This document shows positions 714 to 63,999 of a stretch of 64,000 nt of DNA, in pieces; position 1 is the stretch's first letter; each line of letters begins with the position of its first letter. The translations under genes and the position numbers were made by a program. Source of the stretch: Gammaproteobacteria bacterium (GTDB lineage Bacteria > Pseudomonadota > Gammaproteobacteria > Competibacterales > Competibacteraceae). The stretch covers positions 1 to 64,000 of the forward strand of contig JADLEK010000004.1 of assembly GCA_020846135.1 (NCBI GenBank), written 5' to 3'. The notes under the pieces were generated by a model. The model was not told where the DNA came from, did no database searches, and saw only the letters and a list, made by a program, of their open reading frames with translations.

Positions 714-1418
714 ATGACCGACACCTCTCCGCACACGATTCACGCCCTGGAACTGGGCCACATGGGCAACTTCATCTATATCATCCACGATCATGCGACC
801 GACCGGGCGGCGGTGGTCGACCCGGCCTGGGATCCATCAGCCATTCTGGCCTTGACCCAACAGCATGGACTGCGGATCAGCGATATTCTGCTGACCCACA
901 GTCATTTCGATCATATCAACGGCGTTGAAGCGTTGCTGAAGGTCAGCGATGCGCAACTGCATCTGCTTCGGGCCGAGGCGACATTCTGGGATCGCTATCT
1001 GGACCTGCCAACCCTGCATGAAGGCGGCGACCAGATTCGGTTGGGTGAAACCGTCATCGACATCTTGCACACCCCCGGCCATACCCCCGGTTCGGCCTGC
1101 TACCAAGTCGGCCATCAGGTGTTGACCGGCGACACCCTGTTCGTTTTTGGCTGCGGACGCTGCGATCTGCGCGGCGGCGATCCGGAACTGATGTACCAGA
1201 GCCTGCGCCGGTTGGGCGAGAGACTACCCGGTGAAACCATCATTCGCCCCGGCCATAATTACGGGATCACGCCGACCTCGACCTGGCTGGAGCAACTGGC
1301 TGGCAACCCGTTTCTGCATTGCGCCGATAAATCCGGCTTCGTGAATTACCGGATGCGCCTGCATGACCGCGAAGAGCCGTACCGGCCCGAACCTCGCCCG
1401 CATCGCCATCCACATTGA
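714..1418 (+). CDS. MBL-fold hydrolase, glyoxalase II-like
   Basis: A 234-residue metallo-beta-lactamase-fold protein related to hydroxyacylglutathione hydrolase. The zinc-binding motif THSHFDH is at about residues 61-67, followed by the second-half markers HTPGHTPGS (about 121-129), TGDTLF and RPGHNYG. This is the hydroxyacylglutathione hydrolase/YcbL-type arrangement, but the long C-terminal substrate domain of GloB is absent. After the last metal ligand comes a short His/Arg-rich tail. The substrate cannot be read from sequence: a glutathione thioester or persulfide are options known in the family. The CorA-type gene follows within about 15 bases, suggesting one transcript. Confidence 0.85.
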   Translation: MTDTSPHTIHALELGHMGNFIYIIHDHATDRAAVVDPAWDPSAILALTQQHGLRISDILLTHSHFDHINGVEALLKVSDAQLHLLRAEATFWDRYLDLPTLHEGGDQIRLGETVIDILHTPGHTPGSACYQVGHQVLTGDTLFVFGCGRCDLRGGDPELMYQSLRRLGERLPGETIIRPGHNYGITPTSTWLEQLAGNPFLHCADKSGFVNYRMRLHDREEPYRPEPRPHRHPH

Positions 1419-1433
1419 CTGTGATTGACTGCA

Positions 1434-2429
1434 ATGAGTGCTGCCATGAATGACGCCATGATCGTCAACTGCGTGGCCTATGCCAATGGTCACAAACTGC
1501 CCCATCTGACCCTGGAGAATGTACCGGCGCTGCTGCGTGACCCGGCGGATGCCTTCGTCTGGCTGGGTTTGCGCGAGCCGGACGAGGAGTTGATGGCGCG
1601 GATTCAGGATCTGTTCGGCCTGCATGAACTGGCGGCCGAAGACGCCCACCGCGCCCACCAGCGGCCCAAGGTCGAACGCTATGGCGATGGGCTGTTCGTG
1701 GCGCTGCGCACCGCGCAACTGCGGGACGGCCAGGTGGATTTTGGCGAAACTCATTTGTTTGTGGGGCCGCGCTATCTGATCTCAGTGCGACACGGCGCTT
1801 CATCCCCCTTCACCGCAGTGCGCGCCCGCTGCGAAAGCAACCCGGAACTGTTGCGTAAAGGACCGGGGTTCGTGCTGTACGCCATTCTTGATTTCGTGGT
1901 GGATCACTATTTTCCGATTCTCGACGGGGTGGAAGACACGGTCGAGCAGTTGGAGGAGCAGTTCTTCAAGGGCGATTTCAGCCCGGAGGACATCAGCCTG
2001 CTCTACGAGCTCAAGCGCGATCTGGTGAACCTGCGCCGCGCCGTCGCGCCCTTGGTCGAAGTGTGCAACTATCTGGTTACCGATGTGTTCAACGGCCTGA
2101 TTCCTGAAGACATCCGGCCTTATTTCCGCGATGTTTACGACCATGCCCTGCGCATCAACGAGGCGGTGGACGCCTTGCGGGAAACCCTGGTGATGACCTT
2201 GCAGATCAGCCTGTCCTTGAGCGCCACGCGCCAGAATGAGGCCACCAAGAAACTGGCCGGCTGGGGAGCGCTGCTGGCGACTCCAACTATGGTGTTCAGT
2301 GTCTATGGGATGAACTTCAAAGCCATGCCGGAGTTGAACTGGTCTTACGGCTATCCGCTGGTCATGGGGAGCGTCGCCGTCATCTGCCTGGTGCTGTACC
2401 GCTTTCTGAGAAAAGCCGGCTGGTTGTAG
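1434..2429 (+). CDS. corA: CorA-family magnesium/divalent cation transporter
   Basis: About 331 residues. The N-terminal two thirds are the acidic/helical cytoplasmic funnel. The C-terminus has two membrane helices (about residues 268-290 and 302-322) separated by the signature YGMNF, the loop that forms the selectivity filter in CorA pentamers, followed by the acidic MPEL segment. This supports an inner-membrane Mg2+/Co2+ channel. The start is uncertain: a TTG at 1425, ATGs at 1434, 1446 and 1458 are all in frame, none with a strong ribosome-binding site, and CorA homologues usually begin near VNCVAY. The stop codon directly abuts the ATG of trmO. Confidence 0.88.
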   Translation: MSAAMNDAMIVNCVAYANGHKLPHLTLENVPALLRDPADAFVWLGLREPDEELMARIQDLFGLHELAAEDAHRAHQRPKVERYGDGLFVALRTAQLRDGQVDFGETHLFVGPRYLISVRHGASSPFTAVRARCESNPELLRKGPGFVLYAILDFVVDHYFPILDGVEDTVEQLEEQFFKGDFSPEDISLLYELKRDLVNLRRAVAPLVEVCNYLVTDVFNGLIPEDIRPYFRDVYDHALRINEAVDALRETLVMTLQISLSLSATRQNEATKKLAGWGALLATPTMVFSVYGMNFKAMPELNWSYGYPLVMGSVAVICLVLYRFLRKAGWL

Positions 2430-3128
2430 ATGGTTTCGTTTGCGCCGATTGGCGTCATTCATTCCTGCTTCGGCGAAAAATTCGGCATTCCCCGGCAGGC
2501 TGGGCTGGTTCCGGCGGCGCGGGCGACGCTGGATCTGTTGCCACCTTATGCCGCGCCGGAGGCGCTGCGCGGGCTGGATGGATTTTCCCATCTGTGGCTG
2601 ATCTTCATCTTCCACGGCATCCCGGACGGACAGTGGCAGCCGACGGTGCGACCGCCGCGACTGGGCGGCAGACAACGGATGGGGGTGTTCGCCAGCCGTT
2701 CCCCGTTTCGGCCCAATCCCATCGGCCTGTCGGTGGTGAAACTGGAGCGGATCGCCATTGTTCAGGGCCGGATTACCCTGCATCTATCCGGTGTAGATCT
2801 GCTGGATGGAACGCCGGTGCTGGATATCAAGCCGTATCTGCCTTACGCGGACAGCCTGCCGGATGCGGTGGGCGGATTCGCGTCGCAAGCGCCGGAACTG
2901 CGATTAACGGTGGAGTTCAGCCCGGCGGCGGCAACGTTCTGTGCGACTTGGCCGGATGACGAGTGGCGAGAACTGATCGTGCAGGTGCTGGGGCAGGATC
3001 CCCGACCCGCCTACGAACGAGCCAGTTCAGCGCCACAGCGTTATGGAATGCGCCTGAAGGGAATGGAGGTGCATTGGGAAATGCGTGGCGAGACGGCGTA
3101 TGTGACCGATATCAGCCCCGGTAGCTGA
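2430..3128 (+). CDS. trmO: tRNA (N6-threonylcarbamoyladenosine(37)-N6)-methyltransferase TrmO
   Basis: A 232-residue protein of the TsaA/YaeB/VirR family. In E. coli TrmO methylates t6A37 of threonine tRNAs with S-adenosylmethionine. The characteristic N-terminal beta-barrel motifs are visible: PIGVIHSCFGEKFGIPRQ (about 6-23), GFSHLWLIFIFH (about 51-62), the glycine/arginine-rich GRQRMGVFASRSPFRPNPIG (about 85-104) and DLLDGTPVLDIKPYLPYAD (about 128-146). The C-terminal domain of about 80 residues is also present, so it is full length. The ATG starts immediately after the corA stop, so translational coupling is likely. Confidence 0.92.
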   Translation: MVSFAPIGVIHSCFGEKFGIPRQAGLVPAARATLDLLPPYAAPEALRGLDGFSHLWLIFIFHGIPDGQWQPTVRPPRLGGRQRMGVFASRSPFRPNPIGLSVVKLERIAIVQGRITLHLSGVDLLDGTPVLDIKPYLPYADSLPDAVGGFASQAPELRLTVEFSPAAATFCATWPDDEWRELIVQVLGQDPRPAYERASSAPQRYGMRLKGMEVHWEMRGETAYVTDISPGS

Positions 3129-3147
3129 AAAACCGGATCGCCAACAT

Positions 3148-3169
3148 AAAAAAGCCGGCTTGCGCCGGC
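3148..3169 (-). terminator. intrinsic terminator of the minus-strand EF-hand gene
   Basis: On the minus strand this reads GCCGGC, loop GCAA, GCCGGC, then six T residues. It is a perfect 6-bp GC stem with a tetraloop and U-tract. The U-tract exists only in the minus direction, so it serves the gene ending at 3190 rather than trmO. It lies about 20 bases beyond that gene's stop. Confidence 0.85.
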
Positions 3170-3189
3170 GGTGAAGAAGAAGGCAGCCA

Positions 3190-3567
3190 TCAGGCCATGA
3201 TGGATAACGCGCTCCCGGATGAGTTGAAGCTCTGGTTCGATCCGCCGTAAGCCTGCATCAATCGCCCCATCTGCTTCAGCAACGAAACCGCACTGCCTTG
3301 ATCCTGACTGGCCGATGTCGAAGCGCTGGCTGAAGAAGCGCAGGCTGAAGTTGATCCGCTCGATGAGGATGTGGGTTGCGCTTGGGCAGCCATCGCTTCC
3401 TGCATACTGACGGTGCTGTCCTGATTGGCGTCAGCCGGCTGGTCGCCACCGCCCTCGGTCTGGCCCCCTGCGCCATCGGCGCCGGCAACGCGGATCGCTT
3501 CGCCACTGTTGCCGGAACCCACGATTATGAAGAAACCTCGGTGGGCGAATTCGCCCTGTCCGGTCAA
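3190..3567 (-). CDS. small uncharacterised protein with one EF-hand loop
   Basis: Up to 125 residues, family not recognised. Residues 46-57 (DANQDSTVSMQE) form a nearly ideal EF-hand calcium loop: D1, N3, D5, hydrophobic V8 and E12, with Ser replacing the usual Gly6. Then come a Ser/Ala-rich linker (SSSSGSTSACASSASAS) and a C-terminal amphipathic stretch, LLKQMGRLMQAYGG. The reading frame is supported by a strong intrinsic terminator 20 bases downstream in the same orientation. The N-terminus is unsure: starting at 3567 leaves 20 bases to the divergent exporter gene, and an in-frame GTG about 15 codons later is possible. There is no obvious signal peptide. Its position beside a peptide exporter invites, but does not prove, a link to export. 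Confidence 0.6.
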   Translation of the reverse strand: MTGQGEFAHRGFFIIVGSGNSGEAIRVAGADGAGGQTEGGGDQPADANQDSTVSMQEAMAAQAQPTSSSSGSTSACASSASASTSASQDQGSAVSLLKQMGRLMQAYGGSNQSFNSSGSALSIMA

Positions 3568-3587
3568 CCTGTTAAAGACAACACACT

Positions 3588-4859
3588 GTGAATCCTGCCC
3601 TCTTTCGTCCCCAGGCTCTGGCCAAGATCAGCGATCCCGATCAGCTCGATCAGGCCTTGCGCATCGTGCGGCCCCGGCATGTCCTCGGGTTCGGAGTCAT
3701 CGCCGTCGTCATGATCGCCGGCCTGATCTGGAGTGTGATCTCGACCGCGCCGGTCAAGGTCGGGGGACCGGGCGTCCTGCTCTCTCCCGCCGGCGTCGCC
3801 TCGATAACCGCCCCTGATACCGGGCATATCGATCAGATCTTCGTCCGGCCCGGCGATCAGGTCACGGTGGACCAGCCCATCGCCCTGATCCGCCGCCCCG
3901 AGCAACTCGACGCGCTACGCGCCGCCGATGAGGAAGCTCGTGAAGTCCAGGATCGCTATCAGGCCCTGCAAGCAGAATTCGCCGCCCAGGATCGGATTCA
4001 GGCCGACCTGCTGGCCCGGACGCAGGCAGCCTATGAAAACCGGGTTGCCAACCTCGGGGCGCAAAGCGCCACCTTGGCCAAGCGCCGCGAGGGTGAGTCC
4101 AAACTGCGTGATCAGGGCATCCTCAGCGCCCTGAGCCTGTTTGAGACCGAGACCCAACTGGCGCTGGTCAACAACGAACTGGCTACGGCCCGCAACCGGA
4201 TCACCGAACTGGCTCTGGAACGCGAGCAGCAGGCCGGCAAACAGCGCCAGGAACTGGCCGAACTCCGGATCCGGGCGCAAAGCCTCACCCGCCAGGCTGC
4301 AAATCTGCGGCGCGAATACGAGCGCGATCGCCAGGTATTGGCCACCACCGCCGGGGCTATTGCCGAAATCGGGGTCGATGTCGATGACCCGGTCATCGCG
4401 GGTCAGGTCATCGCCCGCCTGCTAGTGAATGATGCGGGGGAAGCCCGGCTGACCGCCATCGCCTATCTGCCAGCCGCCGAGGGCAAGAAAGTCAAGGCGG
4501 AGATGGCCGCCCGCGTCTCGCCGTCTACGGTCAAGTTTGAACTGGAGGGCTACATCTTGGGCCGGGTGGTCCGGATCGCGGAACTGCCCGCCAGCCGCGA
4601 AGGGCTGTTGCGCCGCCTCAAGAATGCGGTGCTGGTGGAAGAAATTCTCAAGGCCGGCACACCCTTTGAGGTTGAAGTCGAATTGCAGCGGGACGCAACC
4701 ACGCCCAGCGGCTATGCCTGGACCTCGGGTGAGGGGCCGGATATTCGCATCGAACCCGGCACCCTGGCCCGGACCGAGGTGGTGGTGGAGCGCATCCATC
4801 TCATCAGCCTCATCTTCCCGGCCATGGATTATGTCTTCGGCTGGTTTAAAGCCTTATGA
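3588..4859 (+). CDS. NHLM/NHLP-type secretion membrane-fusion protein (HlyD family)
   Basis: A 423-residue periplasmic adaptor. There is a cytoplasmic N-terminus (about 1-33), one membrane helix (about 34-57, GFGVIAVVMIAGLIWSVI), a short lipoyl-like half (GVASITAPDTGHIDQIFVRPGDQV), a long coiled-coil hairpin rich in Q, E, A and R (about 100-255), then the returning beta domain ending in a hydrophobic C-terminus. This matches the membrane-fusion component of NHLM bacteriocin systems, which export ribosomally made peptides. Translation appears to start at a GTG. The stop overlaps the ATG of the ABC transporter by four bases (ATGA), so the two are co-translated. It is divergent from the EF-hand gene. 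Confidence 0.85.
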   Translation: MNPALFRPQALAKISDPDQLDQALRIVRPRHVLGFGVIAVVMIAGLIWSVISTAPVKVGGPGVLLSPAGVASITAPDTGHIDQIFVRPGDQVTVDQPIALIRRPEQLDALRAADEEAREVQDRYQALQAEFAAQDRIQADLLARTQAAYENRVANLGAQSATLAKRREGESKLRDQGILSALSLFETETQLALVNNELATARNRITELALEREQQAGKQRQELAELRIRAQSLTRQAANLRREYERDRQVLATTAGAIAEIGVDVDDPVIAGQVIARLLVNDAGEARLTAIAYLPAAEGKKVKAEMAARVSPSTVKFELEGYILGRVVRIAELPASREGLLRRLKNAVLVEEILKAGTPFEVEVELQRDATTPSGYAWTSGEGPDIRIEPGTLARTEVVVERIHLISLIFPAMDYVFGWFKAL

Positions 4860-7039
4860 GCGCGCGCCAGCCAACGCTCGGGGTCGTTCGCACCCCGACC
4901 ATCCTGCAAATGGAGGCACTGGAATGTGGCGCTGCCGCCCTGGCCATGATTCTGGCCCATTACGGACGCTGGGCGCCGCTGGAGGAATTGCGGGTGCAGT
5001 GTGGGGTATCGCGCGACGGTAGCAAGGCTATCAACCTGGTCAAGGCCGCCCGCAGTTTCGGGCTGAAAGCGCAGGGCAAGCGCCTGGAGCCGTCACAGTT
5101 GGCCAACCTGCCGACCCCGGCCATCCTCTTCGTCAACATGAACCACTTCGTGATCTTCGAGGGGATGACGAAAGTGGGCTTCCAGATCAACGATCCCGGC
5201 GGTGGCCGCCGAACGGTGACTGCGGCAGAGTTCGACGGCATGTTCTCCGGCATCGTGCTGACCTTCGAACCGACCGCTGACTTTCAGCCGGGCGGATCGC
5301 CGCCGGCCATTCTGTCCAGCCTGTGGGCGATGGCGCGCCAGTCGGTCAAGCCCCTGACTTTGCTGGCTCTGGCCGGGCTGCTGATGGCAGTGTTCAGTCT
5401 CCTCTTGCCGGGTTTCCAGCGCGTCTATCTCGACCGCATCCTGATCGAACGGCTGGATGACTGGGTCTATCCGCTGGCGATCACGCTGGGAGCGGTTGCG
5501 CCGCTGATCGCCTTCCTGACCGGGCTGCATGGGCGACTGATGGCGGCGATCAACGCCAAGCTGTCGATTGTCCTGTCCAGCCGGATAGTCTGGCGGGCGT
5601 TGCGCCTGCCGGTGGTCTTTTTCAGCCAGCGCTATGCCGGGATGATCAGCAGTCGGGTGGCGCTGGCCGACCAGTTGGTGCTGACCGCCACCCAGAGCCT
5701 GTCTCAGGCGCTGATCAATCTCGCCCTGCTGCTGATGCTGACACTGCTGATGCTGCAATACAGCGTCGTCCTGACCCTGATCTGCCTCGGCATGACCCTA
5801 TTCAACGCCCTCCTGTTCCGCCATCTGCGCAAGGCGATGGGCGAAGCCTCGGAGAAGGTCGCCATGCAGATGGTGAAGATGTCCGGCAAGGCGATGCAGG
5901 GGCTGCGGATGATGGAGACCCTGAAATCGACCGGCACCGACGATTTCTTTTTTGCCCAGTGGGCCGGGTTGCAGGCCCTGTACATCAACGCCCAGCAAGA
6001 GATCTCCCGGCGCGAGGCCCTGATCGCCGCTCTCCAGACCTGGCTGGCCAGCTTGACGGCAGCGGCGGTGCTGGTGGTTGGCGGCTACTTCACCATGGTC
6101 GATCGCTTTTCCATCGGCATGCTGGTGGCCTTCTCGACCATCACCATCCTCTTCAATCCGCCGGTGACGATTCTGGTCAATCTCGCCGGGGTCCTGCAAC
6201 AGACCAAGGGTTCGCTCAGTCAGGTGGATGACACCCTGCGCTACCCGCCGGCGACCGAGTTCAGCCAGACCGAAACGGCCACTGCGGGTCCCCGGCAGGC
6301 CGCCACTGCACCGTTGCGCCGGTTGACCGGTCAGGTGCGCATCGAGGCGGCATCCTTTGGCTACGCGCCGCTGGAAGCGCCGTTGATCCGCGACTTTTCG
6401 CTGGACATGGCTCCAGGCAGCCGGGTGGCGCTGGTCGGCGGTTCGGGCAGCGGTAAATCGACGGTGGGCAAGCTGGTGACGGGCTTGCTGGAACCGCAGG
6501 CCGGGCGGATTGAATTCGACGGCGTCCCGATGACTGCGATCCCCCGGGATATTTTGCGCAATTCCCTGGCGGTGGTGGATCAGGAGATCGTCCTATTCGA
6601 GGGCAGCATCCGCGACAACATCAGCCTCTGGGATGAGACCCTGCCCCAGGAGCATCTGATTGCCGCCGCCAAGGATGCGATGATTCACGATCTGATTCTC
6701 AGTCGGCGGGGCGGCTATGAGGGGCCGGTGGAGGAGAACGGCCGCAACCTGAGCGGCGGTCAGCGCCAACGCTTGGAGATCGCCCGCGCCCTGGCTGGGA
6801 ATCCAACCTTGCTGGTGCTGGACGAGGCGACCAGCGCCCTGGACTCGATGACGGAAGAAGGGATCATGAATAGCCTGCGCCGGCGTGGCTGCACCTGCCT
6901 GATCATCGCCCACCGCCTCAGCACCATTCGCGATTGTGACGAGATCATCGTCATGCATCAGGGCCGGATTCTGCAACGCGGCTCCCATAGCCAGTTGATA
7001 GCCGAGGACGGCCCGTACCGCCGGCTGATCGAAACCTGA
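4856..7039 (+). CDS. NHLP-family export ABC transporter with C39 peptidase domain
   Basis: A 727-residue bacteriocin-type exporter. Residues 1-140 are a C39 double-glycine peptidase with the triad visible: Cys24 (MEALECGAAAL), His97 (NHFVIFEG) and Asp113 (INDPGGG). About 160-450 is a six-helix ABC membrane domain. From about 480 comes the ATPase: Walker A GGSGSGKST, signature LSGGQRQRLEIARAL, Walker B LLVLDEATSALD and the switch His in IIAHRLST. All catalytic residues look intact, so it should cleave a GG-type leader and export the product. The second ATPase/permease usually encoded beside NHLP systems and any precursor with a nitrile-hydratase-like leader are not seen in this window. Confidence 0.9.
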   Translation: MSARQPTLGVVRTPTILQMEALECGAAALAMILAHYGRWAPLEELRVQCGVSRDGSKAINLVKAARSFGLKAQGKRLEPSQLANLPTPAILFVNMNHFVIFEGMTKVGFQINDPGGGRRTVTAAEFDGMFSGIVLTFEPTADFQPGGSPPAILSSLWAMARQSVKPLTLLALAGLLMAVFSLLLPGFQRVYLDRILIERLDDWVYPLAITLGAVAPLIAFLTGLHGRLMAAINAKLSIVLSSRIVWRALRLPVVFFSQRYAGMISSRVALADQLVLTATQSLSQALINLALLLMLTLLMLQYSVVLTLICLGMTLFNALLFRHLRKAMGEASEKVAMQMVKMSGKAMQGLRMMETLKSTGTDDFFFAQWAGLQALYINAQQEISRREALIAALQTWLASLTAAAVLVVGGYFTMVDRFSIGMLVAFSTITILFNPPVTILVNLAGVLQQTKGSLSQVDDTLRYPPATEFSQTETATAGPRQAATAPLRRLTGQVRIEAASFGYAPLEAPLIRDFSLDMAPGSRVALVGGSGSGKSTVGKLVTGLLEPQAGRIEFDGVPMTAIPRDILRNSLAVVDQEIVLFEGSIRDNISLWDETLPQEHLIAAAKDAMIHDLILSRRGGYEGPVEENGRNLSGGQRQRLEIARALAGNPTLLVLDEATSALDSMTEEGIMNSLRRRGCTCLIIAHRLSTIRDCDEIIVMHQGRILQRGSHSQLIAEDGPYRRLIET

Positions 7040-49813: not shown

Positions 49814-50719
49814 ATGGAAACCAACCTGATGCGCTTTTTTGATCTGTCCGTGAAAACCTTCGCCTTGGCAGGCGTCTGGCGCGGCGCTTCAGCAATGGTC
49901 GCGAATGGCGCGATGACCGAACCTCTGGGGCTGTTGCAGACGCTTGAGCCGTTCACGATCCCGGCTACCCTGCTGGCGGTGATCGGTTCGGTAGCGGCCA
50001 CCCAGATCGGCATTCGCAGTTGGCGGAGATTTCGCCGGGTGCTGGGCAAGGAAGGGCGGGTTGCCCGGCCGCAGCCAGCCCGCGAGTGGTCGCCGGCTGA
50101 CCACCGTGACCAGTTGATTGCGGATTTACAGAATCAGGTCATCGAACTGCACCAGGAAAAAGAACACCTGAGCCGCATCCTTGCGGAAAAGAGCGCCAGC
50201 CTGCGACGGGACCCGCTGACCGGCATCGCGAACCGACTGGCCTATGAAGAGCGGTTGCAACAGGAGTTTCTGCGCTGGAAGCGGTTTGGCCATCCGTTGA
50301 CCCTGCTGGTTTGGGACATCGATCACTTCAAGCAGGTCAACGATAATCACGGTCACGCGGTCGGCGATGCGGTGTTGCGCAAGGTCGCCCAGCAACTGGC
50401 GAGTTATCTGCGGATTACCGATTTTGTCGCCCGCTTTGGTGGCGAAGAATTTGTAATGCTGTTGCCGGGCGCTGATACCGGCGCCGCGCTGCATCTGGCC
50501 GAGCAGATTCGCCGCCAGATCGCTGCATCGGGTGCTGACCAAAGTCATGAGTATGTGCCGGTGACGATTTCCTGCGGCGTGTCCCGCTTTGAACCGGACG
50601 ATTCGCTGCAAAGCGTGTTTAAGCGCGCCGATCAGGCCCTCTATCAGGCCAAGCGAGACGGGCGGAATTGCTGCCGGGTGGGTCGAAATGATACCCGTTT
50701 TGGTGTTCACACCAGCTAA
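49814..50719 (+). CDS. diguanylate cyclase (GGDEF domain)
   Basis: 301 residues. There is a short N-terminal region with one probable membrane helix (about 44-64, PFTIPATLLAVIGSVAATQIGI), then a coiled coil (about 90-130), then a complete GGDEF domain (about 132-295). The active loop is GGEEF (209-213), a fully functional variant. The I-site RxxD (RITD) lies five residues before it, so product inhibition is expected. DPLTGIANRLAYEERL and WDIDHFKQVNDNHGHAVGD provide the metal/GTP site. It should make c-di-GMP from two GTP at the inner membrane. The upstream gap holds the palindrome cluster; the downstream gap holds an inverted repeat. Confidence 0.92.
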   Translation: METNLMRFFDLSVKTFALAGVWRGASAMVANGAMTEPLGLLQTLEPFTIPATLLAVIGSVAATQIGIRSWRRFRRVLGKEGRVARPQPAREWSPADHRDQLIADLQNQVIELHQEKEHLSRILAEKSASLRRDPLTGIANRLAYEERLQQEFLRWKRFGHPLTLLVWDIDHFKQVNDNHGHAVGDAVLRKVAQQLASYLRITDFVARFGGEEFVMLLPGADTGAALHLAEQIRRQIAASGADQSHEYVPVTISCGVSRFEPDDSLQSVFKRADQALYQAKRDGRNCCRVGRNDTRFGVHTS

Positions 50720-53555: not shown

Positions 53556-56500
53556 ATGCAGCCTTTGATCAATGGCAATAAAGATAACCCGATGGGCCTC
53601 AGACGATGGCTGGTCGGAGCCGCCGTATTATGGAGCGTGCTGATCGCGACGTCGCTGTTCTCCCCTCTGGGCGGGATACCCTGGTCGCTGGCGCATGGCT
53701 TGATCTGGGTCTTGGGTCTGATGGGTTTGGTCGGCGCTGTTCGCTATTTTCGACACCAGGATCAGAAGCGGGCGCACATTGAGGCGCTGCTGCGAGACAG
53801 CGAAGCCAAATACCGCATGGTGGCCGATTTCACCTATGACTGGGAATACTGGATCGACCACGGTCGCCTGCTCTATGTCTCCCCGGCCTGCGAACTGATC
53901 ACCGGTTACCGCCCTGACGAGTTCATCGCCGATCCCGGTTTGTTGCAGGGTATTGTCCATCCCGAAGATCGCCCCGCTGTTGTTGAACACTTCGGTTTTT
54001 ATTCCCAACCCATTGATGAAGCCTCAGCCAATTTCGATTTCCGCATCATCACTCGGCAAGGCGAAACTCGCTGGATGAGCCATCGCTGTCTGCCGGTCTT
54101 TGAGGAAGGAAGTTACCGGGGACGCCGCGTCAGCAACCGCGACATTACCCAGCGTAAACAAACTGAGGCCGATTTGCAGCGAACGACGGGCTTGCTGAAA
54201 GCAGTGCGCAGGGTGCAGGCGCTTTACCTGAGCGAAGCTGATTCCCAACAGGTTTTTAAAGAACTGCTGAACGTCCTGGTCAGCATTACCGATAGCGAAT
54301 TCGGCTTTCTGGACGAAGTGCTCCGGGATGAAAAAGGGACTTACAAACTCAGTCCCGCCCTTTCCGATATTTCCTGGAATGAGTCTTCGCGGCAGTTGTA
54401 CGCCAATCTGGTGGCCCGCAACCTGGAATTCCGCAATCTGAACAACCTGGCGGACGCACCGGTCACCACCGGAAAGCGGGTCATTGCCAACGATGCGCTG
54501 CACGATCCACGTTCCGGCGGACTGCCGCCCGATCATCCGCCGCTGTATAACTATCTGGGAATGCCCATCTACTTCGGCAGCGAACTGATTGGCGTGGCGG
54601 GCGTCGCCAACCGTCCAGGCGGCTACGATGACGAACTGGCCGACTGGCTGGAGCCGTTTCTAAGCACTTGCGCCGGCATCCTCCACGCGATGCATCTGGA
54701 ACAGGGTCGGCGGCAGACTGAACAAGCCTTCCGAAACAGCACCGACTCGATGACCGCGATTCTAAACGCCCTGCCGGAATCGGCGTTTTTAATGGATCGC
54801 GATGGAACCATACTCGGCGTCAACGAAACCATGACGCGGCGCCTGGGGCATCCCGTTTCAGCCATGCTGGGAGCCAATGCCTATGCGCTGATTCTCTCCG
54901 ATCTGGCGTCATCCCGTCGGCAACAGATTGAAGCGATGTTTGAAACCGCCGAGCCGATCCAGTTCGAGGATATGCGCGAGGGCCAACTTATTGACAACTC
55001 CATTTATCCGGTGGTGGATGAGCGGGGCAAGGTCAGCCGGGTCGTGGTTTTCAGCGTAGACATCACCGAACGCCGGCAAGTGGAAGAGGCGCTCTGGATG
55101 GCTAATCTCTACAACCGTAATTTACTGGAAGCCAGCCTGGATTCGCTGATGGTCATCGATCCGGACGAGCGGTTCAGCGATGTCAATGCTGCGACCGAGC
55201 AAGTGACCGGTTATCCGCGTGAAGAACTGGTGGGAGCCGATTTCTCCGCGTACTTTACTGATCCAGAGCGAGCGCGGGCCGGATGCCAACAGACTTTTGC
55301 CCAAGGCGAGGTGCATGATTACGAACTGGCGATTCGCCACCGTGAAGGGCGGGTAACGCCGGTGTTGTACAACGCTGCGGTCTGCCGGGACGAAAGCGGC
55401 GAAATCATCGGAGTATTCGCCGCCGCCCGCGACATCACCGATCGCAAGCAGATGACGGATTTGATACAGGCCCGACTGCGGCTCATCCAGTTTGCCGCGA
55501 CCCACTCGCTGGAGGAATTGCTCCAGGCGACTTTGGACGAAGCCGGCATCCTGACCGACAGTCCCATCGGCTTCTATCACTTTCTCGAAGCCGATCAGCA
55601 GACCCTGCATCTCCAAGCCTGGTCCACCCAGACCGTGCAGCTATTTTGCAAAGCCGTGGGCAAAAGCCGGCATTACGACCTGGAGGAAGCCGGAGTCTGG
55701 GCAGACTGTGTGCGCGAACGCCGCCCGATCATTCACAACGATTATGTCGCTCTGCCACAGCGCCGGGATTTGCCGCCTGGACATGCCACAGTGATCCGTG
55801 AACTGGTGATTCCTGTATTCCGAGGCGAGCGCATCGTCGCGGTTCTTGGGGTCGGCAACCGCCCGTATGACTATGGCGAGCAGGACATTGACACCGTGGC
55901 GACTCTGGCTGATCTGGCCTGGGACATTGCCGAGCGCAAGCAGGCTGAGGAAGCGCTACGGCAGAGCGAGGCGCGTTATCGCCGGATCGTTGAGACCGCC
56001 AATGAAGGCATCTGGGCGATGGACGAGGATTATCTGACTACTTTCATCAACCCACGGATGGCGGCGCTGCTGGGCTATACGATGGACGAGATACTGGGCC
56101 AGCCAGTGACCGCGTTCCTGTTTGAAGCAGACTTGGCGGACCACCGGGAAAAAATGCGCATCCGACAACAGGGTGGCGATGCCCGATACGAGCGCCGGTT
56201 CCGGCGTAAGGATGGTAGCGAACTGTGGACACTGGTGTCGGCGGTCGCGCTTAGCGATGACCACCTCCGGTTTGGTGGCTCGTTCGCCATGTTTACCGAC
56301 ATCACCCTGCTGAAGGAGCAGCAACAGCGTCTGGAACAAATGGCGCACTATGACGCACTGACCCAGTTGCCCAATCGGGTGTTGCTGGCGGATCGGTTGC
56401 GGATTGCGCTGGCGCTGGCGCGGCGCGAGGATCGGCTGCTGGCGATTTGCTATCTGGATCTGGATGGCTTCAAGCCGATCAATGACACGCTCGGTCACGA

Positions 56501-56867
56501 GGTCGGCGACCGGTTGCTGGCCGCCGTGGCCGGACGACTGCAACAGTGCCTGCGCGAGGGCGACACGGTAGCGCGGATGGGCGGCGATGAATTCGTGCTG
56601 TTGCTCGGCGGGTTAAGCGATGTTGCGGAAGGGGAGCGGGCGTTGCACCGCCTGCTGGCGGCGATAGCGGAACCGTATGCCCTTGGCGACGGGTTATTAC
56701 CGGTCAGCATATCCGCCAGCGTTGGCGTCACCCTGTTTCCGCTGGATCACACCGAACCGGACATTCTGCTGCGTCATGCTGATCAGGCCATGTACCAGGC
56801 CAAGCACACCGGGCGTAACCGCTACTGCCGGTTTTCGGAAAGGCCGGAATTAGCGATGAGTGATTAG
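53556..56867 (+). CDS. multi-sensor diguanylate cyclase (PAS/GAF repeats + GGDEF)
   Basis: 1103 residues. Two N-terminal membrane helices (about 18-62) precede PAS (about 80-200), GAF (about 215-385), PAS (about 395-510), PAS (about 515-635), GAF (about 640-800), PAS (about 805-930) and GGDEF (about 935-1095). The active loop is MGGDEF (GGDEF at 1009-1013), intact, with an RxxD I-site (REGD) five residues upstream. There is no EAL domain. The paired GAF domains share PLPHRRDLPPGH-like and GVANRPGGYDD/GVGNRPYDYGE segments, suggesting internal duplication. It should make c-di-GMP in response to several small-molecule or redox cues. The stop converges on the TIR protein gene 16 bases away. Confidence 0.92.
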   Translation: MQPLINGNKDNPMGLRRWLVGAAVLWSVLIATSLFSPLGGIPWSLAHGLIWVLGLMGLVGAVRYFRHQDQKRAHIEALLRDSEAKYRMVADFTYDWEYWIDHGRLLYVSPACELITGYRPDEFIADPGLLQGIVHPEDRPAVVEHFGFYSQPIDEASANFDFRIITRQGETRWMSHRCLPVFEEGSYRGRRVSNRDITQRKQTEADLQRTTGLLKAVRRVQALYLSEADSQQVFKELLNVLVSITDSEFGFLDEVLRDEKGTYKLSPALSDISWNESSRQLYANLVARNLEFRNLNNLADAPVTTGKRVIANDALHDPRSGGLPPDHPPLYNYLGMPIYFGSELIGVAGVANRPGGYDDELADWLEPFLSTCAGILHAMHLEQGRRQTEQAFRNSTDSMTAILNALPESAFLMDRDGTILGVNETMTRRLGHPVSAMLGANAYALILSDLASSRRQQIEAMFETAEPIQFEDMREGQLIDNSIYPVVDERGKVSRVVVFSVDITERRQVEEALWMANLYNRNLLEASLDSLMVIDPDERFSDVNAATEQVTGYPREELVGADFSAYFTDPERARAGCQQTFAQGEVHDYELAIRHREGRVTPVLYNAAVCRDESGEIIGVFAAARDITDRKQMTDLIQARLRLIQFAATHSLEELLQATLDEAGILTDSPIGFYHFLEADQQTLHLQAWSTQTVQLFCKAVGKSRHYDLEEAGVWADCVRERRPIIHNDYVALPQRRDLPPGHATVIRELVIPVFRGERIVAVLGVGNRPYDYGEQDIDTVATLADLAWDIAERKQAEEALRQSEARYRRIVETANEGIWAMDEDYLTTFINPRMAALLGYTMDEILGQPVTAFLFEADLADHREKMRIRQQGGDARYERRFRRKDGSELWTLVSAVALSDDHLRFGGSFAMFTDITLLKEQQQRLEQMAHYDALTQLPNRVLLADRLRIALALARREDRLLAICYLDLDGFKPINDTLGHEVGDRLLAAVAGRLQQCLREGDTVARMGGDEFVLLLGGLSDVAEGERALHRLLAAIAEPYALGDGLLPVSISASVGVTLFPLDHTEPDILLRHADQAMYQAKHTGRNRYCRFSERPELAMSD

Positions 56868-56882
56868 CGATCCGATCAGATG

Positions 56883-59800
56883 CTAGCCTAACCCAGACCG
56901 GGCCAGGTCCTCCAGCAGTAACTGAATTTCCACCGCATATTGATAATGCAGGTTGGGATCCATGGCCAGTGACAGATTGCGTTCGCCCGCCAAAATCGCC
57001 TGAAGTTTCTTAATCAACAGCTTGCCATCTTCGGGAACATTGGGACTGGCCATGATTTGCGCCATTTTAGCGATCATCGCCTCGGTATCGCCGGCCCGGA
57101 TCGCCTGACCAATCTGGGTGCACAACTTGGCTCCGGCATTTGCGTTCTCGCCGCCCACCCGTCGATAAGCCAGATACTTTTGAATCGCCTGCTGTCGAGC
57201 CTGATCGGTGACGCTGGGATTTTGCACCGTCTGGCTCACATCACGCAGACCGCGCCGGATCGCCCAGTTGCGGGCGGTAGGGCTTTCCGGCAGGTTGCAC
57301 TCGCTGGCCCGGTACAACTCCTGCCGGGCTTCGTCAGGCCGCCGCAATTGAATCAGCACGTTAGCCAGGCGGTTGCGGCTGGTCTCCTCGCCGCGCCCAT
57401 CGCCCAGTTGCTGATAGATCTCGGCCATGCGCCGGTAAGCCAGCACCGATTCTTCAAGTTGATTCAGCACCTGATGCAAGTGGGCGAGTTCACCCAGCAC
57501 TTCAGCGACTCCGGCGCGGTTGCGCTGCTGTTCGTACAGGTATAGCGCCTGCTGGGCGGCATTCAGCGCCATTTCCATTTGCCCGCCCAGCTTGCGGGCT
57601 ACGCCCAGTTGCCGCCAGGCCTGGGCCGCGCCTTCCGGTTCGCCCAGTTTTTCAAACGCTTGCCGGGCCGCTTCATACAACAGCGCCGCTTCGGCGTAGC
57701 AACCCTGCCGCTGTCGCACCAGCCCCAGCTGCATTTTGTTGGCGGCGATGGCCGGACTGACCGCATTGGGATCGGTCTGAGCCAGCGCCGTTTCATAAGC
57801 CGCCGCTGCTTCCTGCAACCGCCGCAGATAGCTCAGACAATCGCCGATTTCAGCCCCGGCCACCGCAGCCATCCGCCCGGCGCTGGCATTGCCGGCATCG
57901 GCCAAGGTCTGGAACTGCTGCCGGGCCGCCTCCAGTTCCCGCGCCGCTGGTTCAGCCGCACCGGCCAGTTTCAGCAATTTGCCCAGATCAAACCCGGCCC
58001 GGGCCAGATCATAGGCTGCGCCGGGATAAGCATCGACCTCCGCCACCTGACAGCGGCGCTGCAATTGCCGGGCGGATTGCAGCGCATCCTCCAGCGATCC
58101 AGCCTCGCGCAACCGTTCGATCCGCAGCCGTTCGTTTTCAAACCGGGCGCGATTCCAGTCCTGCAAGGCCAGTCCAGCCCGTTCACGGGCGGCGACCACT
58201 TCCACCAGCGCAGCGGGAACGCCCAGTCCGGCGAGTAACTGCTCCAGTTGTCCCGCCAGCCGGGCCCGCGCCTCCGCAGTGGCGTTTTGCTGGCTGTCGC
58301 GCAGCAGCGCCAGCAGGTTCGGCAATTCCAGCCGCAGCAACCGGCTGGTCCGGGCGCCATCCTTGAAATACTGGGGGTAGACGACCGCCAGAAGCTGGAT
58401 CATGCCGGCGCGCCAGCGGTCCAGCCAAACCGCCTGTTGGTCTGGCTCCAGCCCCTTGGCCAGATGATGGGCCAGCGCCGGATCGAAACGCAGGTGGCCA
58501 TAACCTCGGTCCTCGACCAGGCCTAGTCCGATCAGCCGATCAACCAGCGCATTGATCGCCGATGGTTCCAGCGCCAGGGCATAGCTCAAAGCGAGCCGGT
58601 TGACTCCCTGCCGGAAAAACGCCAGCACTGCCAGGCGTTCCCGATCATGGTCAGGCAACCGGCGCAAGAGCAGTTCCAACCGAAGGTACAACGGCCATTG
58701 CGAATCATCACCGTGCCGGGACAGCAGTTCGCTGTGCAATGGCCGCACCAGCGCCAAGGTCGCCTTGACCCCGCGCGCGCCCATTTCATGGGCCAGTCGG
58801 CGGAGCGCCCCGGGATGACCCCCGGCCAGATCCGCCAGTTCGCATAAGAGTTGAAAACCATCCCCACTATCAGCGGCAGGCGGCGCTTCGTGGGTGGCTA
58901 ACAGGGTTTGCTTGAGCAGGGCTATTGCATCATTTTCATCGAGGGGACCCAGTTTCATTTCGGTCCAGGGCCGGGCGAAGGCAGGCGGTCCCAGTCGCCC
59001 CAGTCCCAACAACCGCAACCCCGGCCAGTCATCCAGCCATTGTTTCCAGAACTGATCGAACAATTCCTCGTGTTCCGCCGGCCATTGCTCCAACTGATCC
59101 AGCACGATCAGCGCCGGCTGGGCGCGCAGGGTCTGGCGCAGATCGTCCAGCGCCTGCCAGACGGTCGGATAACGCTCCACCGACCAGTGGCCACCATCAG
59201 GAAGCAACTGCCGACCCAGGATCCCCAGCAGCGGAGTCAGTTCCCCGGCATCGCCGGCATGGACATACGCAATCCGGCGGAAACGCCGGTTGCTCTCCAG
59301 CCACCTCGCCAGGGCGGCGGCGGCGGTGGTTTTGCCACTGCCGCCGCCGCCCTGCAGAAAGACGGTGGTCCGATCTTCAAGCAGTCGTTCCAGTCTGAGC
59401 AGATCACGACTGCGCCCGATGAAGCCGGTGGCGGGAGCTTCGGGGAGCAGGCCCAGCGAACTGGCTCGCGGCTGATTGCTCAACCGACGCCACAGTTCCA
59501 GCGGCGGGCGCAGCATCAGCCGGGGATCGCGCTCACCCAGATACAGCGCACTGATGAACTCGTCCTGCAGGTGGACCCCGCCACCGCCCAGGCCTGGCAT
59601 CCGGTAGCTGTCGCTGGTTAGCCGGCGTTGTCCGACGAACAGCGCTTGGCCGATCCGGACGCCCCGCAACAGTTCTTCGTAGAAGGCATTCCAAAACCGG
59701 CGCAAGGTTTCCGCCGGCGCATCGGGGTGAATCGTCAGCACCGCCGCGATTCCGGCGTTCAGCAGCAGGGCGGCCAGACGGACCGCGATGCTCCCGGCGC

Positions 59801-61130
59801 AGATGATCGCAACCAGATGGAGGTGATAGGTGGCCAGCAGCGCCACCAGCGCTGACCCGGCTACAAAGTGGGCATCGCGGCAGGTCGGCGCCAGCGCGTT
59901 GCTGACCGCCTCAAACCCAAAACGGAGGCCATCGCCGTCAGAATCGGCGCACAGGTAGCCATCCAGATGCAGCGCCGTGAAGGGCCGACCCGCCGCCCAG
60001 GCGTCATTCAACCGTTTTTCCAGCGCTGCGAGGCTGGGAGGAGTCAGCGCGGTGAATTCCACCAGTTCGCCGAGTACGCCCAGCGCCTCGGCCAGCGGCA
60101 AGGCGCTGCGTCGGTAGTCAGCATGACCGGTGGGTTCGGTATCGGGACGCGGGCTGATAGTCAGGATGCGCAAGGGCGGCGGCGCGGGCGGAAAGGGGTC
60201 GCCACCGCCAGGCAGCCGGCGCTGGATTTGAATCGGCTGTTTGCCATGACTCAGGAAACCGGCGCCATCGTGCAGGAGTTCCCAGGGCAGCGCGAACAGG
60301 TCGAGTGCAGGAGACGCGGCTTCAGCCTGCACCGTCAAGCGCTGTTCGCCGGGCGCATCGCGCCAGGTGGCGATCAAACCCTGTGAGTCGGGCGCGCCGA
60401 GCGTGATTCGGTGCAGATTCTGGCCCCAGGCGGCCAGCCAGGCATCGGTTTGGCGGACGACCCGCCGGACTGCATCGGTTGGCCAAAGCGGCAGATCCAG
60501 CCAGTAACCGCGCAGAATCCGGGCGGCGGGCGGCGGGGGCAATGGCCCAATCACGGTCGTGATTTCAGCGGTCGGCTTGGTTCCGGGGCCACGATTCAGG
60601 CGGGTGGTCATCCGCCAACGCCCGACTGACGTCGCGGCTTCAGGGCTAAAGGTCAGCGTCAGGTTGGCCAAGGGCGGCGGGTTGCGCTCGGAAGCTGATT
60701 CGGTGGGCAGCGATTCACCCAAAGCGGTCAGCAGCTTCGGCAAGGCTGCCCCCAGACCGCCATCGGTCAGCCGGATCGGGGCGACCCGGGGCGGCGCAGA
60801 GAACCAGGCCACCAGCGTCGCATGATCGACGCCCGGCAACAACAGCGGGATCACCCGATAGCTATTAGCCTGACGCCGCTCCACATCCTGGGCCACTTCG
60901 ATTTCCCGGCGCAACCAGGCCGGATCGCCGGTATTGAGGCCGACCACCACGATCACTTGTCGCGCCTGTTCAATCGCCCAGCGCACGTCGGTGGTGAGCC
61001 GCTCGCTACCGCGCAACTTGCGCTGATCGCGCCAGACGCTAAGCCGGAAGGTTTCCAGCGCAACCGCCAAATCCCGGGCGAAGGCGTCCTCAGTGAACGC
61101 ATGACAGATAAAGACGGAAGCAGCGGTCAT
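56883..61130 (-). CDS. TIR / CHAT-like / NB-ARC / TPR multidomain protein
   Basis: 1415 residues. Residues 1-140 are a TIR domain (MTAASVFICHAFTEDAFARDLAVAL); Glu76 in AWLRREIE matches the NADase glutamate position. About 270-550 is CHAT-like (LFALPWELLHDGAGFLSHG, Leu-Pro-Trp at 281-283), but the protease motif HxxGHG appears as HLDGYL (Tyr392 for the catalytic His) and the usual ACxS as CAGS (Cys444 one position early), so it is probably inactive. About 565-800 is an NB-ARC/STAND ATPase: GFIGR, Walker A GGGGSGKTT (594-602), Walker B LIVLDQ. A winged-helix-like part follows, then TPR repeats (about 1000-1300). The layout is that of bacterial NLR-like defence proteins; function is inferred. 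Confidence 0.85.
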   Translation of the reverse strand: MTAASVFICHAFTEDAFARDLAVALETFRLSVWRDQRKLRGSERLTTDVRWAIEQARQVIVVVGLNTGDPAWLRREIEVAQDVERRQANSYRVIPLLLPGVDHATLVAWFSAPPRVAPIRLTDGGLGAALPKLLTALGESLPTESASERNPPPLANLTLTFSPEAATSVGRWRMTTRLNRGPGTKPTAEITTVIGPLPPPPAARILRGYWLDLPLWPTDAVRRVVRQTDAWLAAWGQNLHRITLGAPDSQGLIATWRDAPGEQRLTVQAEAASPALDLFALPWELLHDGAGFLSHGKQPIQIQRRLPGGGDPFPPAPPPLRILTISPRPDTEPTGHADYRRSALPLAEALGVLGELVEFTALTPPSLAALEKRLNDAWAAGRPFTALHLDGYLCADSDGDGLRFGFEAVSNALAPTCRDAHFVAGSALVALLATYHLHLVAIICAGSIAVRLAALLLNAGIAAVLTIHPDAPAETLRRFWNAFYEELLRGVRIGQALFVGQRRLTSDSYRMPGLGGGGVHLQDEFISALYLGERDPRLMLRPPLELWRRLSNQPRASSLGLLPEAPATGFIGRSRDLLRLERLLEDRTTVFLQGGGGSGKTTAAAALARWLESNRRFRRIAYVHAGDAGELTPLLGILGRQLLPDGGHWSVERYPTVWQALDDLRQTLRAQPALIVLDQLEQWPAEHEELFDQFWKQWLDDWPGLRLLGLGRLGPPAFARPWTEMKLGPLDENDAIALLKQTLLATHEAPPAADSGDGFQLLCELADLAGGHPGALRRLAHEMGARGVKATLALVRPLHSELLSRHGDDSQWPLYLRLELLLRRLPDHDRERLAVLAFFRQGVNRLALSYALALEPSAINALVDRLIGLGLVEDRGYGHLRFDPALAHHLAKGLEPDQQAVWLDRWRAGMIQLLAVVYPQYFKDGARTSRLLRLELPNLLALLRDSQQNATAEARARLAGQLEQLLAGLGVPAALVEVVAARERAGLALQDWNRARFENERLRIERLREAGSLEDALQSARQLQRRCQVAEVDAYPGAAYDLARAGFDLGKLLKLAGAAEPAARELEAARQQFQTLADAGNASAGRMAAVAGAEIGDCLSYLRRLQEAAAAYETALAQTDPNAVSPAIAANKMQLGLVRQRQGCYAEAALLYEAARQAFEKLGEPEGAAQAWRQLGVARKLGGQMEMALNAAQQALYLYEQQRNRAGVAEVLGELAHLHQVLNQLEESVLAYRRMAEIYQQLGDGRGEETSRNRLANVLIQLRRPDEARQELYRASECNLPESPTARNWAIRRGLRDVSQTVQNPSVTDQARQQAIQKYLAYRRVGGENANAGAKLCTQIGQAIRAGDTEAMIAKMAQIMASPNVPEDGKLLIKKLQAILAGERNLSLAMDPNLHYQYAVEIQLLLEDLARSGLG

Positions 61131-61201
61131 GGATGGGTTCCGGCGGTGGGGGGAAGGTCAAGGCTTTTAGTAGCTTAGCTCAAAAAAACCTGGGCGGGGG
61201 A

Positions 61202-61229
61202 CTTGAAAATCAGGAGAGCGGCCCCAATT
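61202..61229 (+). promoter_or_regulatory. sigma-32-like heat-shock promoter of hsp20
   Basis: CTTGAAA (61202-61208), a 13-base spacer, then CCCCAATT (61222-61229) closely match the RpoH consensus CTTGAAA-N13-15-CCCCATNT. It lies about 60 bases before the hsp20 ATG, giving a short leader with GAGGAG as ribosome-binding site. Confidence 0.75.
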
Positions 61230-61289
61230 AAGTAGTCATCTAGGGGCGTTCACTGAACGCCGAAATCCAAACCACGAGGAGATGCCATC

Positions 61290-61730
61290 ATGACACTGAT
61301 GCGTTATGAACCTTTCAATCTGTTGAACCAGTTGCAGCGGGAAGTCAACCGGCTGTTTGACACCAACCGGTTCGGCGATGAAGAAACCGGCCATGCGCTG
61401 GCGGATTGGGCGCCGGCGGTGGACATTAAGGAAGAAGCCAACCAGTTCATCATCCACGCCGACCTGCCGGGCGTCGAGGTTAAGGATATCGATATTTCGC
61501 TGGAGAACGGCGTATTGACCCTGAAAGGCCAGCGCTCGATTGAGCAAAAGGAGGAAACTGATAAATATCGGCGGGTCGAGCGGGTGCGCGGTTCGTTCCT
61601 GCGGCGGTTCTCGCTGCCGGATGCGGTGGATGCAGAGAAAGTCTCCGCCAAATGCCGGGATGGCGTACTGGAATTGCTGGTGCCGAAACGGGAAGCAGCG
61701 CAACCTCGCCGGATCGCGATTGAAAGCTGA
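61290..61730 (+). CDS. small heat-shock protein Hsp20
   Basis: A 146-residue alpha-crystallin-family chaperone. The N-terminal arm MTLMRYEPFNLLNQLQREVNRLF, the alpha-crystallin domain (about 42-135: WAPAVDIKEEANQFIIHADLPGVEVKDIDISLENGVLTLKGQR) with SFLRRFSLPDAVDAEKVSAKCRDGVLELLVPK, and the C-terminal IxI-type RRIAIES are all present. It should bind unfolding proteins as an ATP-independent oligomeric holdase. GAGGAG lies 7 bases upstream of the ATG. A sigma-32-like promoter precedes it and a long inverted repeat follows. Confidence 0.95.
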   Translation: MTLMRYEPFNLLNQLQREVNRLFDTNRFGDEETGHALADWAPAVDIKEEANQFIIHADLPGVEVKDIDISLENGVLTLKGQRSIEQKEETDKYRRVERVRGSFLRRFSLPDAVDAEKVSAKCRDGVLELLVPKREAAQPRRIAIES

Positions 61731-63718: not shown

Positions 63719-63741
63719 ATTATAGGGTGGGGAGCCGCAAA

Positions 63742-63999
63742 ATGACGATCACCAAACTTTCCAGCCGGGAATTTAACCAGGATGCCGGCAGGGCAAAAAA
63801 AGCCGCCAGAAATGGTCCAGTGTTCATCACTGATCGGGGTCGGCCTGCACATGTGCTGTTGACCATCGAGGAGTACCAGCGAATCACCGGTGATCAGACC
63901 AGCATCGTCGAGCGGCTCGCCATGCCTGCTGACGTTGACCTGGAGTTCGAAGCCCCCCGTTTACAGGGCGAGTGGCACCGGCTGGCGGATCTCTCCTGA
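63742..63999 (+). CDS. Phd/YefM-type antitoxin at window edge
   Basis: An 85-residue protein with the Phd/YefM N-terminal DNA-binding fold (MTITKLSSREFNQDAGRAKKAARNGPVFITDRGRPAHVLLTIEEYQRI) and an acidic C-terminal toxin-binding tail (ADVDLEFEAPRL). The ATG at 63742 has GGGGAG about 11 bases upstream. The stop TGA is followed by T as the last base of the window, so a toxin (VapC/PIN or Doc type) starting at or just beyond 63999 in a TGATG overlap is likely but not visible. Unrelated to the PIN remnant at 21857. Confidence 0.88.
   Translation: MTITKLSSREFNQDAGRAKKAARNGPVFITDRGRPAHVLLTIEEYQRITGDQTSIVERLAMPADVDLEFEAPRLQGEWHRLADLS

Follow-up and report, generated by a model that had tools for sequence, protein, structure and literature searches.

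The NLR-like proteins of bacteria are regarded as products of phage defence genes that change quickly. Among the closest described systems, the TIR-NLR of P4-like satellites is an antiphage TIR-STAND-TPR system (Rousset et al. 2022, PMC9122126); a protein combining CHAT and TIR is the target of diversity-generating retroelement 2 in Thiohalocapsa PB-PSB1 (PMC10907252); inactive caspase domains occur in MoxR-vWA conflict systems, where they were proposed to be dominant-negative or peptide-binding modules (Kaur et al. 2020, PMC7159879); and the plant NLR I-2 depends for its stability on an Hsp20 partner, RSI2 (PMC2988412). Here we analyse a gene at positions 56883-61130 (minus strand) of the window, a stretch of 64,000 nucleotides from a Competibacteraceae genome (GCA_020846135.1, contig JADLEK010000004.1), whose product, P0001, joins TIR, CHAT-like, STAND and TPR parts. 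Competibacteraceae are glycogen-accumulating bacteria of wastewater plants, without easy genetics. The protein looks like the opposite of a fast-moving defence gene product: its gene is apparently core, its putative sensor is frozen, its pseudo-protease is fixed clade-wide and a chaperone gene is its fixed neighbour. We favour, with a probability of about 0.48, the reading that P0001 is a TIR-NLR which its bacterial lineage has domesticated, with a core gene that is paired with an Hsp20 gene and resembles a stress switch more than a mobile antiphage gene. If confirmed, this would be a case in which bacteria have domesticated an immune-type receptor for cell physiology, and a natural test of the role of a pseudo-caspase inside an NLR.

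P0001 shares with the P4-satellite TIR-NLR an N-terminal TIR domain, a central STAND NTPase and C-terminal TPRs, a likeness of described domain order; no CHAT is described in the satellite protein, which sits on mobile elements, whereas P0001 is encoded by what is apparently a chromosomal core gene (PMC9122126). The Thiohalocapsa target likewise has a caspase-like CHAT and a TIR in one protein, but it is diversified by a retroelement and its CHAT is described as proteolytic, whereas the CHAT of P0001 is dead and no variable region was seen (PMC10907252). The MoxR-vWA systems also keep inactive caspase-fold domains in a conflict-type protein, fused there to vWA components of ternary systems and here to TIR-STAND-TPR (PMC7159879). 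An earlier note on this DNA had suggested an undescribed defence architecture, which is not supported as put, because the order with a live CHAT exists in relatives and a protein with both CHAT and TIR has been published (PMC10907252). None of the parts is thus new. Our literature search, which returned no paper linking Competibacter with a TIR domain, found neither the fixed dead-CHAT form nor its pairing with Hsp20, and these appear to be undescribed.

The gene is one frame with an ATG start, encoding 1415 amino acids (stop codon 56883-56885), and its full-length conservation in most of 30 genomes shows that it is no chance open reading frame. The single frame with TIR, CHAT-like region, STAND ATPase and C-terminal TPRs described by the earlier note was confirmed by hidden Markov model (HMM) matches and by relatives; it has the order of TIR-NLR antiphage systems plus an extra pseudo-CHAT. 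All its parts lie on the minus strand. The STAND/AP-ATPase domain (residues 546-800, 58731-59495) gives weak AAA_16, NB-ARC and NACHT matches, with a weak AAA_16/NB-ARC signal at residues 570-690 of the full-length protein; the NB-ARC score of 22.2 bits does not reach the curated cut-off of 23.5, which the relative P0003 passes with 30.1. The Walker A (GGGGSGKT, 59328-59351) and Walker B (LIVLD, 59097-59111) motifs are intact, as had been claimed, and recur as GxxxxGKT/S and hhhhD in every orthologue covering them. The putative sensor is a TPR array (residues 961-1275, 57306-58250; PF13424), with HMM matches at residues 1095-1201 and TPR_12 at 1132-1201. Foldseek, run on a low-confidence model, found the STAND-TPR half to resemble the STAND-TPR protein 6mfv and TPR proteins. 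The C-terminal tail (residues 1276-1415, 56886-57305) has 81% mean column identity and no convincing Pfam family.

The central part of our argument concerns the pseudo-CHAT domain (residues 271-545, 59496-60320). Full-length P0001 does not match PF12770, and the excised region does so only under the cut-off (E 2.5e-4, 21 of 24 bits); with matches counted at E up to 1, however, 28 of 28 orthologue segments match (best 1.1e-11), and in a profile-profile comparison (hhalign) the pseudo-CHAT aligned to live-CHAT relatives with 100% probability over 277 columns. When the own genome was searched with PF12770, nothing matched, this gene included; since even this gene was missed, the CHAT assignment rests on the relatives, and since there was no other match, a decoy for a live CHAT in that genome is unlikely. 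Searching the PDB with profiles built from the dead and from the live CHAT alignment yielded nothing useful. The AlphaFold2 models are of low confidence (predicted local distance difference test 57-58; mean 57.5 in the model used to judge the CHAT fold), so that the TIR fold is the sole claim resting on them; the order of the CHAT elements is compatible with a caspase-like fold, but the fold matches listed for the model include TIR and no CHAT or caspase structure.

Comparison of 29 orthologue rows with 19 live relatives, in which the motif columns are 95-100% conserved, indicates that the protease site was lost cleanly and was not shifted, and that the CHAT is catalytically dead, as judged from the alignment. 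The earlier note was right that HLDGYL (residues 388-393, 59952-59969) stands in place of HxxGHG: it is a relic of HFDGHG, and the catalytic His column, Tyr392 in P0001, holds His in one of the 29 orthologues (3%) and Tyr in 21, against His in 100% of the live set. The claim that the AC motif had shifted to ICAGS (residues 443-447, 59790-59804) has to be given up: the catalytic Cys column is A445, with Cys in none of the 29 orthologues and in 95% of the live set, and C444, in what is left of the ACQ site, is itself not conserved, the nearest relative having ITGTGS. HPD-type residues have taken the place of the next motif, SHS. Could the domain still be a protease through a rebuilt dyad? C417 is present in 86% of the orthologues and H336, H388 and H468 in 83-90%, but no Cys is invariant (at C417, 4 of 29 orthologues have Tyr), no conserved alternative dyad is visible in the alignment, and the HG, ACQ and SHS columns of the live form have all been replaced, which makes such a rebuilt protease very improbable.

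The dead domain is nevertheless maintained; the earlier note had taken it for a structural or binding module. Twelve residues (P282, W283, E284, R321, R328, R340, F406, E407, G460, F483, G490 and D523) are kept in 100% of the dead set, and four further invariants, L389, W480, L488 and G516, are new in the dead clade. Its ratio of non-synonymous to synonymous substitutions (dN/dS, throughout a simple pairwise NG86-type estimate) is 0.12-0.18, about equal to that of the STAND domain and in every pair below that of the variable linker before it (residues 141-270, 60321-60710), the least conserved part of the protein (0.15-0.48). Purifying selection and the retained core residues together imply that the pseudo-CHAT has been preserved for a role that is not proteolytic.

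The live TIR-CHAT-STAND-TPR relatives (among them L036, encoding P0003, L046, encoding P0002, L066 and L068) have the domain order of P0001 over the full length, with the same C-terminal tail aligned, but unlike P0001 they keep HFDGHG and ACQ. L036, L046, L047 and L049 share 33-41% identity with P0001, and P0002 and P0003 show TIR, CHAT (PF12770), AAA and TPR matches over the cut-off in the same order. This order occurs in other Competibacteraceae and in other members of the phylum. Within the family, the live relatives are patchy (about 6 of 39 genomes), unlike the dead-CHAT form.

Orthologues of the dead-CHAT form (E at most 1e-10) were found in 30 of the 39 family genomes, most of them draft assemblies; two further genomes (G001, G023) hold relatives only and are outside this count. 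Close orthologues are 63-87% identical and come from records named Candidatus Contendobacter and Competibacteraceae. In the RpoB tree the carriers group in a single clade (support 100/100), and the orthologue is absent from all six sister-clade genomes. Of the 21 good genomes in the carrier clade, 20 have the gene; the sole absence within the clade on this tree is G012, a genome of 1.2 Mb in which the contig ends next to the hsp20 gene, and two incomplete genomes without an RpoB row also lack the orthologue. In the gene tree, all orthologous dead rows of the family fall in one clade (Shimodaira-Hasegawa-like approximate likelihood ratio test, SH-aLRT, 100) on a stem of 1.06 changes per site, and the nearest relative of this clade is L036, a live-CHAT protein from a sister-clade genome (SH-aLRT 85). 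Outside the family, samples of 369 genomes of the class and 398 of the phylum, in which two candidates per genome were scored and rare cases may be missed, contained only the live lineage, the degenerate L037 and L045, and CHAT-STAND proteins without TIR; an order-level search returned just the same family. These trees suggest a single loss of the CHAT active site, on the stem leading to the main Competibacteraceae clade, and a gene that is apparently core and vertically inherited.

A second lineage of TIR-CHAT-STAND-TPR proteins (L037 and L045, family f117) reads HFDGYG or HLDGYG, has no ACQ and has an altered TIR BB-loop region; the degeneration of its CHAT is apparently a separate loss. A single sequence, L085, has the Cys changed to Gly.

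The strongest rival to domestication is core antiphage immunity, in which the TPRs would sense a conserved phage product, the STAND domain would oligomerise and the TIR would deplete NAD+ in an abortive response, the dead CHAT being a leftover spacer. We regard this as possible, though not our first choice. TIR-STAND-TPR proteins are proven antiphage systems (the TIR-NLR of P4 satellites, PMC9122126), the TIR and STAND motifs of P0001 are intact, and just past the window come a Phd/PIN pair and a type IIG restriction-modification gene. However, the gene is core, follows one clade of the species tree and is not patchy; plasmid and phage records contained no match and viral contigs no confirmed one, so that neither the patchy spread nor the carriage of a mobile defence gene was seen. 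The surroundings of the dead-CHAT gene are housekeeping genes, and the Phd/PIN and restriction-modification cassette was not found at the other loci examined.

The conservation of the putative sensor speaks in the same direction. Mean pairwise identity in the dead clade is 73% for the TPRs, 71% for the C-terminal tail, 70% for TIR, 64% for CHAT and 60% for STAND, while in the live relatives the TPRs (51%) are less conserved than the CHAT (58%); TPR and tail dN/dS is 0.04-0.13 in the dead clade (TPR array 0.05-0.09, tail 0.04-0.13). Sensors engaged in an arms race are usually the most variable part of a protein. As the most conserved part here is the TPR and tail region, a conserved ligand, probably internal, is the simpler reading of these alignments. 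One clade, no mobile carriage found, a frozen putative sensor, housekeeping surroundings and a heat-shock neighbour thus lean away from an arms-race gene, and the defence role that the earlier note had proposed, although possible for the dead-CHAT form, does not match its apparently vertical, core pattern.

The heat-shock neighbour is an Hsp20 gene (61290-61730, plus strand; PF00011, E 1e-25), which is divergent from the TIR gene in 28 of the 29 orthologue loci having upstream sequence; in the exception, G025, no Hsp20 match was found at the cut-off used. The gap between the two genes is 155-175 bp in the 25 loci measured, and the Hsp20 proteins at the loci tabulated are 64-95% identical to that of the window. 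No related Hsp20 gene was found in the flanks examined of live-CHAT relatives, and in the sister-clade genomes G001 and G022 the nearest Hsp20 gene adjoins a DnaJ/CbpA-like gene (named by eye) instead. Other neighbours, such as ptsP-like and FieF-like genes (named by eye) and BrkB and patatin genes (Pfam, window copies), vary between loci while the TIR/Hsp20 pair stays.

The intergenic region is conserved as well. CTTGAAA-N13-CCCCA, which we take to be a textbook sigma-32 promoter, faces the Hsp20 gene at 61202-61229 (plus strand) and occurs once in the window, against 0.03 expected; a sequence of this type is found in all 25 aligned intergenic regions, with CTTGAAA invariant in 25 of 25. A conserved box, TAGCTTAGCNCAAAA, which reads TTTTGNGCTAAGCTA toward the TIR gene (61171-61185, minus strand), is probably the -10 element of that gene's promoter. 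It occurs once in the genome, and this uniqueness rules it out as a regulon site. The 5' leader of Hsp20 contains a hairpin, GGCGTTC-N3-GAACGCC (61245-61261, plus strand), conserved with paired changes (GGCATTC/GAATGCC in L027, GACGTTC/GAATGTC in L016); it matched no Rfam family and no RNA-thermometer family, and a role as thermosensor or operator is conceivable.

The TIR domain (residues 1-140, 60711-61130; dN/dS 0.06-0.19) matches PF13676 at residues 6-100 of the full-length protein (E 9e-15, 55.6 bits against a cut-off of 28), and its model matches the RUN1 and SARM1 TIR structures (VIA-align, Z about 16). Glu76 (60903-60905), in WLRREIE, sits at the conserved W-x3-E position, is invariant in 26 of 26 orthologue rows and aligns with the position of the Glu that is catalytic in the TIR domains of BtTir and AbTir; a TIR effector, as the earlier note had it, is thus a plausible enzyme, with Glu76 its predicted catalytic residue. 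One might instead imagine a non-enzymatic signalling hub, in which TIR and pseudo-CHAT only bind proteins and the ATPase is the switch, for example in heat-shock regulation. One enzyme site has already been lost, the Hsp20 pairing would fit, and MalT/AfsR-type STAND-TPR proteins are regulators, the similarity of P0001 to them being confined to the TPRs; but across 26 orthologues Glu76 and a large part of the TIR core vary little or not at all, which is hard to explain without catalysis, and we consider a hub distinctly unlikely.

Under the domestication reading, an ancestral TIR-CHAT-STAND-TPR protein would have lost the active site of its functional caspase-like protease, while the gene became core and paired with Hsp20. 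The TPR array and tail would keep the protein inactive as long as they lack a conserved ligand, probably one that is internal or linked to stress; once this is bound, the STAND ATPase would exchange nucleotide and oligomerise, bringing TIR domains together, and the resulting NAD+ cleavage or cyclic ADP-ribose signal would slow or kill the cell. The pseudo-CHAT, placed between TIR and STAND, may be a rigid module that couples or restrains them, and Hsp20 may stabilise the receptor or be co-expressed with it under protein-folding stress. Domain content, protease-site loss, purifying selection, a single clade, the Hsp20 pairing and the sigma-32-type sequence are read in the sequences themselves; the enzymatic, oligomerisation, sensing and chaperone steps are all inferred. 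A more specific version, which we find rather doubtful, is a housekeeping proteostasis checkpoint, in which the protease was killed, an NAD-cutting TIR was kept and Hsp20 became a dedicated, co-regulated chaperone, as a bacterial counterpart of plant NLR-Hsp20 dependence. I-2 with RSI2 and P0001 with Hsp20 each associate an NLR-type receptor with a small heat-shock protein, by analogy only: the former is eukaryotic and its interaction was shown, while the latter is a pairing of neighbouring genes (PMC2988412).

Several points weigh against domestication. A conserved TPR array is also compatible with sensing a conserved phage protein, core genes may be immune genes, and the divergent Hsp20 pairing may reflect shared promoter space only. 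The first TIR motif reads FICHA instead of FISHA, which makes NADase activity uncertain. In G002 (L034/L130) and G004 (L035) the orthologue is in two overlapping or abutting frames, through assembly error or decay, and in the own genome about 3.7 kb separate the start of the TIR gene from the type IIG restriction-modification gene that follows beyond it (PADLOC, E 0).

Around the window end, L131 (G000:C4:63000-72000) contains at 728-5076 a Phd-type antitoxin gene (window 63727-63999) and a PIN-type toxin gene (named by eye), followed by the type IIG gene and an ATPase-like fragment. The live-CHAT paralogues L046, L049 and L051 share one locus in several genomes, patchily within the family; an isocitrate lyase-like gene and another metabolic-enzyme-like gene adjoin it (named by eye), with no obvious defence island. 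Finally, two diguanylate cyclase genes lie near the TIR gene of the window, one at 49814-50719 (GGDEF) and one at 53556-56867 (PAS/GAF-GGDEF), the latter convergent with the TIR gene and kept in the nearest relative, L006.

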